Of a DNA stretch of 43,271 nucleotides, positions 250 through 29,745 are shown in pieces. The notes under the pieces are model-generated. The model was not told the DNA's origin. It worked only from the letters and a program-made list of their open reading frames with translations, and searched no databases. The stretch spans positions 1-43,271 of the forward strand of contig JARGFU010000036.1 of assembly GCA_029210625.1 (NCBI GenBank), read 5' to 3'. This DNA is from Deltaproteobacteria bacterium. Lineage in GTDB: Bacteria; Myxococcota; Myxococcia; SLRQ01. The position numbers were made by a program, and so were the translations under genes. Numbering within the stretch: position 1 is the stretch's first letter; every line of letters starts with the position of its first letter.

Positions 250-10328
<10,079 letters not shown>

Positions 10329-10332
<4 letters not shown>

Positions 10333-20064: not shown

Positions 20065-20523
20065 CTACTTGATCCCCAGCGCCCGCTTCAGCTTCTTCAC
20101 CGTCGCGAAGTAGGTGCTCCGGTCGTAGGGCACGTTCAGGATGTGGAAGTCGGCCTTCTGCAGGCCGACGCAGCCGAAGCAGTAGCTGCAGTCGGAGCAG
20201 CGGGTGCAGAGCTCGAGGTAGGCCGAGCCCACGCAGCTCTCGCAGCCGGTGCAGTGGGTGCAGGCGTTGCAGCGGACGCACTCGACGCACTGGTTACAGT
20301 GGGTGCACTCCTGGCAGTCCTCGCAGTAGTTGCAGCGGTAGCAGGCGTTGCAGCCCTTGCAGAACATGCAGGACGCACAGTCCTTGCACTCCCGGACCTC
20401 GTAGCAGGCGATGTTCGCCGCGGCCTCGGCGTGCTCCTTCCGGAGGGCCTCGAGGGCCCGCAGGAACCCGTTGCGATCGAGAGGAGGGAGCCCGTCCTCG
20501 CCTTCCAGGGGCTGGTCTGCCAT
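20065..20523 (-). CDS. Small protein with Cys at every third residue
   Basis: 152 residues from the ATG at 20523; an ATG 45 bases further upstream is also in frame. Cysteines occupy every third position from Cys46 to Cys97 (18 in a row), then Cys106 to Cys118 (five), with Cys40 in the same register, so all 24 Cys share one phase. Intervening residues are mainly polar. The flanks are a helical N-terminus (about 16-38) and a C-terminal segment VPYDRSTYFATVKKLKRALG. No signal peptide is visible, so it is probably cytoplasmic and reduced, and could bind several metal ions or clusters. I do not know a characterised homologue. It is divergent from the Rep helicase gene, 77 bases away. Confidence 0.8.
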   Translation of the reverse strand: MADQPLEGEDGLPPLDRNGFLRALEALRKEHAEAAANIACYEVRECKDCASCMFCKGCNACYRCNYCEDCQECTHCNQCVECVRCNACTHCTGCESCVGSAYLELCTRCSDCSYCFGCVGLQKADFHILNVPYDRSTYFATVKKLKRALGIK

Positions 20524-20600
20524 GCGGGGTCTTTGCCACGCCCGGGCCCTCTTCCGCAAGAGTGGCATTCCTCCGCCGCCGCTCTATCCTGGCGTGCCCC

Positions 20601-22634: not shown

Positions 22635-22695
22635 TCCGGGGGGTCGGCCGGTCGAACTGGGGGGCCTGTTCGGGCCCCTGGCGAGAGGTCACACC

Positions 22696-24207
22696 TTGAG
22701 AAAACGCTCCACGATCCAGATCCTCACCGCCCTGCTCCTCGCGTCGGGAGCCGGCGGCGCCCTCCTCGGCGCGCTCGCCGCCTCCCCCGCGTCCGCCCAG
22801 CCAGGCGAACGCTACGCCGAGGTCTTCTCCGAGAAGCTCAAGATCCAGCGGGATCTGCGGGAGCGCCTCCAGGAGACCCTCTCGCCCCTGGCCGAGCCCT
22901 TCCACATCTACGTCTCGGTCTCGGTGGAGGCCAAGGCCGAGGTGCGCAAGCTCATCGACAAGGAGACCACCCCGGGGATGCAGGTGGACATGGGCTCGGG
23001 GGAGTCCTTCAAGCTCCCGGGCCTGCCCACCGTGCAGGGGACCAAGCTCAAGGGCTCCCCCAAGGTGAACATCACGGTGCCCAGCCGGGAGAGCATCTCC
23101 ACCCGGGAGACGATCCAGGCCAAGCTGCACGCGATCAAGGTCGAGGTGCGGCACCAGCCCGGCATCACCGAGGAGCGCCTGGCGCAGATGCACGAGGTGG
23201 CCGTGGGGGTCGCTGGCCTCGATCTGACGGGGGGCGACTCGATCGTCTTCGTCGAGATGGCCCGCAACGCCGCCGAGGAGGTCGAGTTGCTCTTCGCCCC
23301 CGATCTGATCCCGGTCATCATCATCTGCCTGACCATCCTGCTCTCGACCTTCATGCTGGCGATGGCCATCGGCCGCCGGAAGGTCCACACCACCGAGACC
23401 GCCGGAGCGGGCGGCGGGGCCGGCCCGAACTTCAGCGACGCCGCCGAGATCGAGCTCGAGGGTGACCCGGACGCGACCGGCAACGGCGCGATCATCGGGC
23501 ACCTCGGCACCGGGTACTTCGGCTTCGTCTCGGAGCTGAACCACGACCAGCAGGTCGAGCTCTTCGCCACCCTCGAGCCCCAGGTGGCGGCCATCGTCAT
23601 CGACTGCATCGGTGTCGCCGCCGGCGTCCTGCGGGAGGCCTTCGAGCAGGTCGAGGAGAAGCAGAAGCTGGCCCTGATCCGCGCCATGGCCGAGCCCCGG
23701 AAGGTGGAGACCGCCCGCATCGAGGCCATGGAGGCCGAGGTGCAGGCGACGGTCGACCAGATCAAGAGCCGGATCAAGATCGGCTCGGCGGCCTCGGCCA
23801 CCGAGATCCTGGCGCTGACCTCCTCGGACGACACCCGGGCGATCCTCGAGGCCATCGGCGCCGAGAACCCCGCGCTGGCCGAGCAGCTGCGCTCGGGCCT
23901 CGTCCTCTTCGAGGACGTGCCCGGCCTGCCGGTCGCCCAGGTGCGCACCGCCGTCGCCGCCGCCGACCCGCACACCGTCGCGGTGGCCCTCCGCGGCGCC
24001 GATCCCGCCATCCGCAAGGCCATCCTGGAGTCGGTCTCCAAGCGCCTGGCGGCCTTCCTCGAGTCCGAGGAGCAGTACCTCGGCGAGGTCAGCGAGGAGC
24101 AGGTCGAGGAGGCCCGGCTGCAGTTCGAGGCCCACCTGCGCAGCTCCGGCAGCGCGAAGAAGCCGGCCTCGGCGGAGGCCTCGAAGGAAGCCGCGGGGGC
24201 CGCATGA
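22696..24207 (+). CDS. Natural FliF-FliG fusion: ring segment plus motor-switch protein
   Basis: 503 residues from TTG 22696, chosen for the GAGAGG Shine-Dalgarno 8 bases upstream and the signal peptide that then follows (A-S-A just before residue 35). Residues about 65-190 resemble the third ring-building motif of FliF: HIYVSVSVEA, a 45-residue insertion, then IKVEVRHQPGITEERLAQM and GGDSIVFVEMA. A transmembrane helix (204-226) is followed by a FliG middle-like region (about 275-400, LEPQ at the EHPQ site) and a FliG C-terminal torque domain (401-478, LFEDV, VALRGADPAIRKAILESVSKR). The torque helix keeps Arg450 and an acidic cluster (Glu456, Glu458, Glu459). FliG N-domain, FliM and FliN are absent. 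It heads an operon with TPR, MotA and two MotB genes, so it is inferred to be the rotor of a stand-alone motor. Confidence 0.8.
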   Translation: MRKRSTIQILTALLLASGAGGALLGALAASPASAQPGERYAEVFSEKLKIQRDLRERLQETLSPLAEPFHIYVSVSVEAKAEVRKLIDKETTPGMQVDMGSGESFKLPGLPTVQGTKLKGSPKVNITVPSRESISTRETIQAKLHAIKVEVRHQPGITEERLAQMHEVAVGVAGLDLTGGDSIVFVEMARNAAEEVELLFAPDLIPVIIICLTILLSTFMLAMAIGRRKVHTTETAGAGGGAGPNFSDAAEIELEGDPDATGNGAIIGHLGTGYFGFVSELNHDQQVELFATLEPQVAAIVIDCIGVAAGVLREAFEQVEEKQKLALIRAMAEPRKVETARIEAMEAEVQATVDQIKSRIKIGSAASATEILALTSSDDTRAILEAIGAENPALAEQLRSGLVLFEDVPGLPVAQVRTAVAAADPHTVAVALRGADPAIRKAILESVSKRLAAFLESEEQYLGEVSEEQVEEARLQFEAHLRSSGSAKKPASAEASKEAAGAA

Positions 24208-24971
24208 AGCTCGTCGTCCTCTTTGTCGCCGGGATGGCCATGGGCAGCCTGCCCGACCGGGCCGGCCTGCGCGACGCCCTCTTCCACTATCCCAACGAGG
24301 CGGGCGAGACCGCGCCGGTGGGGGAGGACCTCGAGTGGGAGGGACAGGGCAAGGTGCAGGTCAAGTTCGCCCGCACCTACCAGGAGCGCCGGGACGCCGC
24401 CCTCACCAAGGTGGCGGACCGCCTGAAGATGCTCACCGACCTGCTGGCCACCGCCTCGGCCGCCGAGAAGAAGGCCGACAAGGAGGCCGCCCGCCTCAAC
24501 CTCAAGGGCTACGCCGCCGACACCCTCGGCCAGAACGACGCCGACTTCGTCGAGGCCGTGACCTGGGAGGGCAAGCGGATCCGCATGCTCCAGCGGGCGA
24601 TGAAGGGGGCCAAGGCCAAGAAGGAGGTCATCCCCGAGCTGCAGGGGGATCGCCTCGACAACGCCGCGGTGCTCATCGACAACGGCGTCCTCGAGGAGCG
24701 GGTGAAGCAGCAGTCGGAGGCCTACCGCCTGGTCGCCGAGAGCTACGCCGCCTTCCTCGACAACAAGCTCATCGACGCCATGAAGAAGATGGAGGAGGCG
24801 AGCAAGCTCCTCCCCGACGTCGGGCTGCCCCACGTGCTGATGGGCTCCTTCTACTTCCTCGCCCGGGACCAGGAGCAGGCCCTGAGCGAGTGGAAGAAGG
24901 CCCTCGAGCTCGATCCGGACAACGACGAGCTCAAGCAGATCATCGAGCAGTTCGCGAACCTCGACGAATAG
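24204..24971 (+). CDS. TPR protein of the motor-like operon
   Basis: 255 residues. A short hydrophobic N-terminus (MKLVVLFVAGMAMGS) may be a signal or anchor. The middle is helical and lysine-rich with a long charged stretch (about 55-150). The C-terminus holds two to three TPR-like helix pairs (about 175-253), the last reading ALSEWKKALELDPDND. TPR proteins serve as assembly or pilotin-like factors; the partner here is presumably the fused rotor protein. The ATG overlaps the rotor gene's stop (ATGA), and MotA begins 9 bases after its TAG. Confidence 0.8.
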   Translation: MKLVVLFVAGMAMGSLPDRAGLRDALFHYPNEAGETAPVGEDLEWEGQGKVQVKFARTYQERRDAALTKVADRLKMLTDLLATASAAEKKADKEAARLNLKGYAADTLGQNDADFVEAVTWEGKRIRMLQRAMKGAKAKKEVIPELQGDRLDNAAVLIDNGVLEERVKQQSEAYRLVAESYAAFLDNKLIDAMKKMEEASKLLPDVGLPHVLMGSFYFLARDQEQALSEWKKALELDPDNDELKQIIEQFANLDE

Positions 24972-24980
24972 AGAGACAGC

Positions 24981-25730
24981 ATGCGTTCCACCACCTACCT
25001 GGGCTTCCTCCTGGGTATCGCCGTCGTCTATGGCGTCGTCCTCGCCAAGGGCGGCGACGTCTCGATCTTCATGAACCCCATCGCCCTGACGGTCTGCGTG
25101 GGGGGCACGATCGCGGCCACGACCCTCTCCTCCTCCCGCTCGACGCTGATCCACGCCTTCTCGGCGATGAAGAAGCTCCTCGTGAAGCGGACCTCGAAGT
25201 GGCAGGAGGTCGCCGCCGTCATCGTCGAGATGGCCCGGACCGCCAAGACCTCGGGCCTGGCCGCCATCGATCCCGAGAAGCTGCCGCTCGCCAGCCCCTT
25301 CCTGAAGAAGGGCACCCAGCTGGTCGTCGACGGCGTGGAGCCCGAGCGGATCGAGGAGCTCCTGCGCCTCGAGTCCCAGATCCTCTCCGAGAAGCGCAAG
25401 TCCGCCGAGCGGATGTTCCGGCTGATGGGCACCTACTCGCCGATGTTCGGCCTGGTGGGCACCCTCATCGGCCTCATCCAGATGCTCAAGGACCTGCAGG
25501 ATCCCCGAGCCATCGGCCAGGGCATGTCGGTGGCGCTGATGGCCACCTTCTACGGGGTGCTCCTGGCGGGCCTGGTCTTCCTCCCCCTGGCGGGGAAGAT
25601 CCACACCCTCGACGAGGACGAGCGGCTGGTGCGGGACCAGATCCTGGCCGGGCTGCTCTCGGTGCGGGTCGGCGAGAACCCGGAGCACATCCGGGAGACC
25701 GTCGAGACCTTCGGAGCCCGACGCGACTGA
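24981..25730 (+). CDS. motA: MotA/PomA-family stator subunit
   Basis: 249 residues with four transmembrane segments (about 5-22, 32-50, 152-172, 184-204) and the long cytoplasmic loop between the second and third. Pro154 in TYSPMFGLVGTLIGLI and Pro202 occupy the conserved proline sites of MotA. The loop segment EMARTAKTSGLAAIDPE matches the charged region that contacts FliG in flagellar motors, with Lys and Asp in place of the usual Arg and Glu. With MotB it forms an ion-driven stator. ExbB/TolQ and AglR-type proteins are relatives, but the MotA-specific loop and the neighbouring MotB genes favour MotA. A GAGAG precedes the ATG. Confidence 0.9.
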   Translation: MRSTTYLGFLLGIAVVYGVVLAKGGDVSIFMNPIALTVCVGGTIAATTLSSSRSTLIHAFSAMKKLLVKRTSKWQEVAAVIVEMARTAKTSGLAAIDPEKLPLASPFLKKGTQLVVDGVEPERIEELLRLESQILSEKRKSAERMFRLMGTYSPMFGLVGTLIGLIQMLKDLQDPRAIGQGMSVALMATFYGVLLAGLVFLPLAGKIHTLDEDERLVRDQILAGLLSVRVGENPEHIRETVETFGARRD

Positions 25731-25743
25731 CGCGGGGCCGCTC

Positions 25744-26373
25744 ATGCGCACCAACCCCCGCTTCACCGAGGAGGAGTCCCCCTCCCCGCTGCAGGACGCG
25801 ACCTGGCTCTACTCCTACGCGGACATGATCACCCAGCTCCTGCTCTTCATCATCCTGACGGTCTCGGTGGTGGGCCTGAAGGCGATGGACCAGGTCAGCC
25901 AGGAGGACGAGCAGGTCAACGAGGCGGTGGAGGAGTTCGAGGACCTGATCGCCAAGCAGGGGCTCGACGATCAGCTCGACATCGACCGGGCCGCCGGAAG
26001 GCTGGTGATCCGCCTGCGCAGCTACCTGCTCTTCGGTGAGGGCAAGGCCGATCTCGGCCCCGACGCCGCGGCGGTCCTGGACGGCGTGGTGGTGCTCCTG
26101 CGGCACACCGACCGCCACATCCGGGTCGAGGGGCACACCGACAACGTGCCCATCAAGAGCGCGCGCTTCCCCTCCAACTGGGAGCTCTCCACCGAGCGGG
26201 CCCTCTCGGTGATCGAGTACTTCGAGAAGGCCGGGATCGCCCGGGATCGCCTCTCGGTCGCGGGCTACGGAGAGTTCCACCCGATCATGCCCAACGACAC
26301 CAAGGCCCACCGGACCCTGAACCGGCGGGTCGAGATCGCCCTCCTCGAGGCCAAGCAGGAGGCCGGGGAGTGA
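25744..26373 (+). CDS. motB: MotB-like stator subunit, copy 1
   Basis: 209 residues. A short cytoplasmic tail, then one transmembrane helix with the ion-binding Asp27 in WLYSYADMITQLLLF, a linker, and an OmpA-type peptidoglycan-binding domain (about 70-200: VEGHTDNVPI, SNWELSTERA, NRRVEI). It would couple ion flow to MotA and anchor the stator to the cell wall. The linker is short, so the OmpA domain begins close to the membrane. It lies 13 bases after motA and its TGA overlaps the next GTG. Confidence 0.9.
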   Translation: MRTNPRFTEEESPSPLQDATWLYSYADMITQLLLFIILTVSVVGLKAMDQVSQEDEQVNEAVEEFEDLIAKQGLDDQLDIDRAAGRLVIRLRSYLLFGEGKADLGPDAAAVLDGVVVLLRHTDRHIRVEGHTDNVPIKSARFPSNWELSTERALSVIEYFEKAGIARDRLSVAGYGEFHPIMPNDTKAHRTLNRRVEIALLEAKQEAGE

Positions 26374-27101
26374 AGAAGAAGGGCTTCCAGATCAGCCAGT
26401 CCCCGGAGACCGAGGAGGACCTCTCGGCCTTCTGGCTGATCACCTACTCGGACATGACCACCCTCCTGCTGGCCTTCTTCCTCCTCATCTACGCCTTCAC
26501 GGTGATGGGGGATCAGGGGCGGGAGTCCCTCCTCGACGCGCTGAACCTCATCGACAAGAACACGCCCGCCGAGGAGCTCGACGAGCCGCTCGCGGCCCTC
26601 CGGGAGAAGGCCGATCAGATCGCCGAGATGATGGGCCAGGAGGCCGAGGAGAAGCCCTGGGTGCAGGCCACCGAGTCCGAGGTGACCATCGGCCTGCCCG
26701 CCGGCATCACCTTCGCCTCGGGCAGCGCCAAGCTGAACCCGGCCGCCAGCAAGCACCTGGCCCACGCCGCCCGGGTCCTCCAGGGGCCCGGCCAGCTCAT
26801 CCGGATCGAAGGCCACACCGACGACATCCCGGTCCTGGGGGGGGCCTACCGGAGCAACTGGCACCTCTCGGTGGCCCGGGCCCAGACCGTGGTGCAGATC
26901 TTCGTCGCCGAGGGGATCAAGCCCCGGCAGATCGAGGTGGCGGGCTACGCCGACACCCGCCCCCGGGACACCAACGAGACCCCGCAGGGGAGGGCGAACA
27001 ACCGCCGGATCGAGATCAAGCTCCTCTCCAGCGGCGCGGCCGGGGGGGAGGCTCCTGCCCCCGCCTCGGCCCCCGCGCCGGCCCCCGGGGAGGCCGGCTG
27101 A
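26370..27101 (+). CDS. MotB-like stator subunit, copy 2
   Basis: 243 residues from a GTG that overlaps the previous stop (GTGA). The transmembrane helix carries Asp28 in [17 protein letters not shown], so the ion-binding residue is kept. The OmpA domain follows (about 100-222, [16 protein letters not shown]) and ends in an Ala/Pro-rich tail of about 20 residues. It differs clearly from copy 1, with a longer linker and different loops, so it is an old duplication. MotA-MotB stators usually have one MotB type; two suggest a mixed or exchangeable stator. Confidence 0.9.
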
Positions 27102-28117: not shown

Positions 28118-28272
28118 ATCCTCGGCCGTCCCCCACGACGCCCTCCCGGGCAGCGTGGCGGGCGGCCGTCGTGTATCCGTCGCTTGTTCCAAGGTCGCGA
28201 TCGACTGTGGTAGTTGGGGGAATTCGCGGGTGTTCTCCCGTCCCCGCCCGACTTCCCCTGGAGGGTCTCGAA

Positions 28273-29745
<1,473 letters not shown>

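Follow-up and report, generated by a model that had tools for sequence, protein, structure and literature searches.

A conserved, non-flagellar rotor-stator gene set with a FliF-FliG fusion in Myxococcota

In the flagellar motor the S-ring, with its 33-34 subunits, is formed by the RBM3/collar part of FliF, and to our knowledge FliG-based rotation occurs only inside flagella. The AglRQS gliding motor of Myxococcus uses the TolR-like subunits AglQ and AglS, and we know of no FliG rotor in it. In E. coli, the contacts between rotor and stator involve R281 and D288-D289 of FliG together with R90 and E98 of MotA (PMC12505986). Myxo-type non-flagellar type III secretion systems (T3SS) have been reported to be devoid of FliG and MotAB (PMC3459982).

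The window analyzed here, a stretch of 43,271 nucleotides, contains at positions 22696-27101 five open reading frames on the + strand, in which adjoining genes overlap or are separated by no more than 13 bases. The original prediction of five tightly packed motor genes was borne out, as all reading frames are found at the coordinates given for them and their families are matched by Pfam and NCBIfam (FliG; TPR; MotA_N and MotA_ExbB; OmpA and MotB_plug, the latter pair twice). The operon is a real, conserved and non-flagellar rotor-stator gene set assembled from known parts, the features of which are listed in Table 1.

Table 1. Features of the rotor-stator operon, in window positions
Feature	Position	Strand	Evidence
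FliF(RBM3/collar-TM2)-FliG(M+C) fusion, 503 aa, TTG start	22696..24207	+	profile, structure model and sequence
Shine-Dalgarno-like AGAGGT 5' of the fusion TTG start	22684..22689	+	sequence
Putative signal peptide of the fusion (MRKRS...ASPASA)	22696..22797	+	inferred from the sequence; A32 and A34 do not vary within the family
RBM3/S-ring domain, predicted to be periplasmic, whose long beta-hairpins make up the collar	22801..23265	+	profile-profile, model, Foldseek
Transmembrane helix equivalent to FliF TM2	23308..23397	+	profile-profile, model
FliG middle and C-terminal domains; topology places them in the cytoplasm	23521..24153	+	Pfam, NCBIfam, profile, model, Foldseek
R450, equivalent to E. 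coli FliG R281 (stator contact)	24043..24045	+	invariant in 7/7; R281 role from PMC12505986
E458, equivalent to E. coli FliG D289 (stator contact)	24067..24069	+	invariant in 7/7; PMC12505986
TPR protein: signal peptide and N-terminal helical domain limited to this operon	24204..24971	+	Pfam, profile search
MotA, flagellar-type stator subunit; K89/D97 align with E. coli R90/E98	24981..25730	+	Pfam, NCBIfam, alignment, tree
MotB1: channel Asp D27 (25822-25824) in the TM helix; wall-binding domain of the OmpA type	25744..26373	+	Pfam, NCBIfam
MotB2: channel Asp D28 (26451-26453) in the TM helix; wall-binding domain of the OmpA type	26370..27101	+	Pfam, NCBIfam

Three other genes of the window may be mentioned. 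One (20065-20568, - strand) encodes a small protein that matches no Pfam family and has a long series of cysteines in CxxC spacing. The second (250-10332, + strand) is a 3360-aa reading frame that consists mostly of metal-binding repeats of the Cu-binding_MopE family and has a TIG domain towards its end. The product of the third (28171-29745, + strand) contains seven or more thrombospondin type 3 repeats.

The FliG similarity of the first gene, which had been proposed for profile testing, passes such tests: the protein matches Pfam FliG_C with 1.8e-17 and NCBIfam TIGR00207 (fliG) with 2.3e-16, the latter under the equivalog cut-off, and a profile of seven homologous fusions finds structures of the FliG middle and C-terminal domains with an E-value of 2.4e-37. 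No Pfam match was obtained for the FliF part; the second half of its RBM3 and TM2 do however align to a profile of FliFs taken from flagellar loci of the same phylum (hhalign profile-profile comparison, probability 94%, E 8.7e-8). In the AlphaFold2 model, the confidence of which is modest (mean pLDDT 71), the RBM3 core and the FliG parts mostly reach 80-93, the collar and the linkers being low, and Foldseek searches with this model retrieve FliG entries at E 1e-9 and FliF S-ring entries at about 1e-6. The predicted fusion is thus real, but it unites only RBM3/collar-TM2 of FliF with the M and C domains of FliG; RBM1, RBM2, TM1 and FliG_N are absent, and the protein is not a complete FliF, which would have RBM1, RBM2, RBM3 and two transmembrane helices. 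Judged from sequence and model, the fusion is a putative S-ring/collar joined via TM2 to the torque part of FliG, in which a ring-forming domain is tied to the rim that a stator would push. A phage origin of the fusion was dismissed, as there is no PHROG match.

Several residues of the rotor-stator interface are retained. The equivalents of FliG R281 and D289 do not vary among seven fusions whose identity to the window protein is only 27-31%, whereas those of K264, D288 and R297 are lost in the fusion family, so that two of the five FliG charges are kept. On the stator side (E. coli numbering set by eye), the position of MotA R90 is occupied by K or R in all copies compared, and that of E98 by D in six out of seven and by N in one genome. 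The window MotA shares 67-69% identity with the operon MotAs of other genomes, resembles solved MotA/PomA structures (E 9e-49 to 8ucs_C) and exhibits the flagellar-type (FIT) architecture of MotA_N and MotA_ExbB. Both MotBs retain the Asp of a YAD or YSD motif as well as the wall-binding motifs, although this Asp could be seen in only seven of eight MotB1 sequences, MotB1 being incomplete in one genome (L038). The operon accordingly combines, as a flagellum does, a FliG torque domain with a MotA/MotB stator and the charge contacts between them, and the retention of these charges and of the MotB channel Asp agrees with the ion-driven stator that had been suggested.

It had been considered that the host might possess a flagellum elsewhere whose missing FliF and FliG are supplied by the fusion. 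The host genome, which is 98% complete, carries a single FliG_C protein, has no match to the rod/hook family PF00460 and encodes neither FliM nor FliN, its sole SpoA protein being the SctQ of a T3SS. As a second FliG, rod and hook, and FliM/FliN are all missing, the fusion does not complete a flagellum there and this explanation was ruled out. Rod and hook genes are also missing in four other genomes (G035, G055, G104 and G195).

A survey of further genomes, which the original prediction had suggested, showed that the gene order recurs in seven of them. The fusion is present in eight of 195 genomes of the phylum, window host included, as confirmed by profile search. The whole order fusion-TPR-MotA-MotB1-MotB2 is found in G044, G043, G192, G104 and G035, while in G039 a contig end cuts the fusion and makes the start of MotB1 unreadable, and in G055 the contig stops after the TPR gene. 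A profile of the TPR N-terminal domain identifies exactly the same eight genomes among the 195 searched. With the MotA profile, the seven operon MotAs score 474-492 bits, all others remain below 190, and a decayed copy that stands alone in G054 lies in between with 317. A MotA of this clade is present in seven of the eight fusion genomes, the eighth being cut by a contig end, and in one further genome as a relic. When about 85,000 species were scanned with two MotA peptides, an exact-match procedure that can overlook divergent members, six loci were obtained from organisms named Anaeromyxobacter, Myxococcales or Deltaproteobacteria. One of them, G195, has the TPR protein, MotA and both MotBs at the very start of a contig, with the break on the side where the fusion would lie, and the fusion was not found elsewhere in this genome. 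A cultured carrier of the operon is Anaeromyxobacter oryzisoli SG63 (NZ_JALCZA010000039.1). Beyond the close pair G043/G044, no sharing of operon neighbours between genomes is visible.

In the MotA tree the operon copies form a single clade (support 100/100, stem 1.53) whose internal branching is broadly taxonomic, which suggests that the operon was anciently inherited and lost many times. At L134:9579-10649, G054 has a single MotA that belongs to the operon clade and evolves fast; it has none of the other four genes in its vicinity and is likely a relic of operon loss. It is very improbable that the operon as a whole is a decaying remnant of a lost flagellum: apart from the TPR protein, every component is homologous to a flagellar one, and G054 does retain nothing but a lone decayed MotA, but the five genes stay in order and are under purifying selection (dN/dS 0.23-0.39 for the genes of G043 versus G044, calculated from full reading frames in which the fusion 5' ends may hold non-coding bases), G043 and G192 bear the operon alongside separate flagella, and the operon MotA clade is distinct from the flagellar MotA of the same genomes.

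Taken together, we regard it as rather likely that the operon encodes a dedicated rotary ring motor that is driven by ions and does not belong to a flagellum. Since it is conserved even in relatives that have no flagellum, this motor probably turns some other machine of the cell envelope. Copies of the fusion would assemble into an inner-membrane ring via the periplasmic RBM3/collar, although such assembly is uncertain because RBM1 and RBM2 are missing, and the FliG torque domain of each copy would reach into the cytoplasm. The stators, composed of MotA and one or both MotBs and anchored to the wall, may then push against the FliG rim by way of the charge pairs still present, so that torque would be generated by fusion and stators together. 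As the FliM-binding EHPQ motif of FliG is not conserved in the fusions and the host has no FliM/FliN, rotation is probably one-way and switchless. The secreted TPR protein, for which a fold search returned generic TPR matches only, is exclusive to the operon and the best candidate for a periplasmic adaptor passing torque to the load.

A candidate for this load is the T3SS of the host, which resembles the short Myxo-type non-flagellar T3SS described by Abby and Rocha (2012, PMC3459982). The operon itself contains neither the export gate RSTUV nor SctJ or SctN, and the original prediction, that no export apparatus is present, is true of the 43-kb window; elsewhere in the host genome, however, contigs C27 and C20 carry a T3SS. 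The cluster on C27 comprises the only FlhA/SctV of the host together with SctJ, SctQ, a FliO-like protein (E 5e-4, narrowly missing the Pfam cut-off), R, S, T and U, as well as an SctI-like protein assigned by similarity between genomes only. The SctN ATPase is located on C20 with FliH-like and FliJ-like neighbours, which were called by eye.

The T3SS qualifies as a candidate because SctJ has the ring domains that are absent from the fusion. In a narrower form of the non-flagellar motor, which we consider unlikely, the operon would provide a rotary, PMF-dependent drive for the T3SS: SctJ would contribute RBM1-RBM2 and the fusion RBM3-TM2-FliG, and the two would surround the export gate as a FliF/FliG ring split between them. 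The two domain inventories are indeed complementary, as the host SctJ stops after RBM2 without a transmembrane helix and neither a FliF RBM3 nor a FliG is encoded in the T3SS locus itself. The motor had been called stand-alone, which goes beyond the evidence, because the SctJ of this non-flagellar T3SS could complement the missing ring domains. A non-flagellar SctV or SpoA gene occurs in eight of the nine genomes bearing the operon; the 66%-complete G039 yielded none. This co-occurrence is nevertheless uninformative, because the short T3SS is present in nearly all Myxococcia, the operon in few, and the gene content of the T3SS is identical with or without the operon. For the same reasons the T3SS does not need the motor. 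Moreover, in the stretches read the operon never adjoins T3SS genes, and the T3SS of G192 is instead of the long type and includes a FliG-like protein of its own. It is quite doubtful that a split MS-ring of SctJ and the RBM3-FliG fusion is turned by MotA/MotB1/MotB2 around an export gate without needle and secretin, and equally doubtful that such a rotating T3SS, as part of that arrangement, represents an intermediate form between flagellum and injectisome.

Two observations on these secretion loci should be added. In the long Myxo-type T3SS a protein of about 500 aa is encoded right after SctJ (L181:7324-8823 in G094, L182:4185-5771 in G104 and about 4047-5000 of L183 in G192). The G094 copy matches Pfam FliG_C above the cut-off (29.4 bits), in contrast to the published report of no FliG (PMC3459982), and the torque residues of this FliG-like protein look lost. 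The first gene of the T3SS loci (L051:11899-12309 and its counterparts) encodes a small protein of no Pfam family, the C-terminus of which (SNIMRARHEAAQNAIANIR) is conserved across the short and the long loci that were compared; it may be a subunit similar to those of a rod or needle.

Another envelope complex is as likely a load as the T3SS, or more so. A second narrower form of the non-flagellar motor, tentative but a serious possibility, is a drive for surface motility or for envelope work apart from the T3SS, similar to AglRQS-Glt but with its own rotor. The hosts are related to gliding myxobacteria, the one MotA and two B subunits correspond in number to AglR and AglQ/AglS, and a secreted TPR adaptor would fit; on the other hand, no Glt-like or outer-membrane gene was recognised in or beside the operon, the neighbours vary between genomes and the stators are of the flagellar type with wall-binding domains.

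A search of mainly open-access literature revealed no described system of this composition, in line with what the original prediction had supposed. If the proposal is true, a FliG rotor that is conserved together with a stator of its own, in hosts lacking any flagellum, would mean that the motor is separable from propeller, switch and export. The operon would also offer a much smaller rotor-stator pair for structural work, and it bears on the 2012 proposal in asking whether the early-branching Myxo T3SS truly lost FliG and MotAB.

In comparison with known systems, the name of the anti-phage system Zorya does not apply: a MotAB-type stator is shared and both MotBs score on ZorB models, but MotA has no ZorA match, no Zorya effector was matched and the operon possesses a FliG rotor, so that identity with Zorya was ruled out. 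With AglRQS the operon shares one A and two different B subunits (PMC9120999), but both of its B subunits are of the MotB type with an OmpA domain. Myxo-type non-flagellar T3SS (PMC3459982; needleless T3SS* in PMC12075869) occur in the same hosts and their SctJ carries FliF domains that are absent from the fusion, whereas the operon is without any T3SS gene. With the flagellar motor, finally, it has in common the S-ring domain, a FliG torque domain with R281/D289, a flagellar-type MotA and wall-binding MotB, but it differs in its natural fusion without RBM1/2 and FliG_N, in two distinct MotBs, in a TPR protein of its own and in a host without FliM/FliN, rod or hook.
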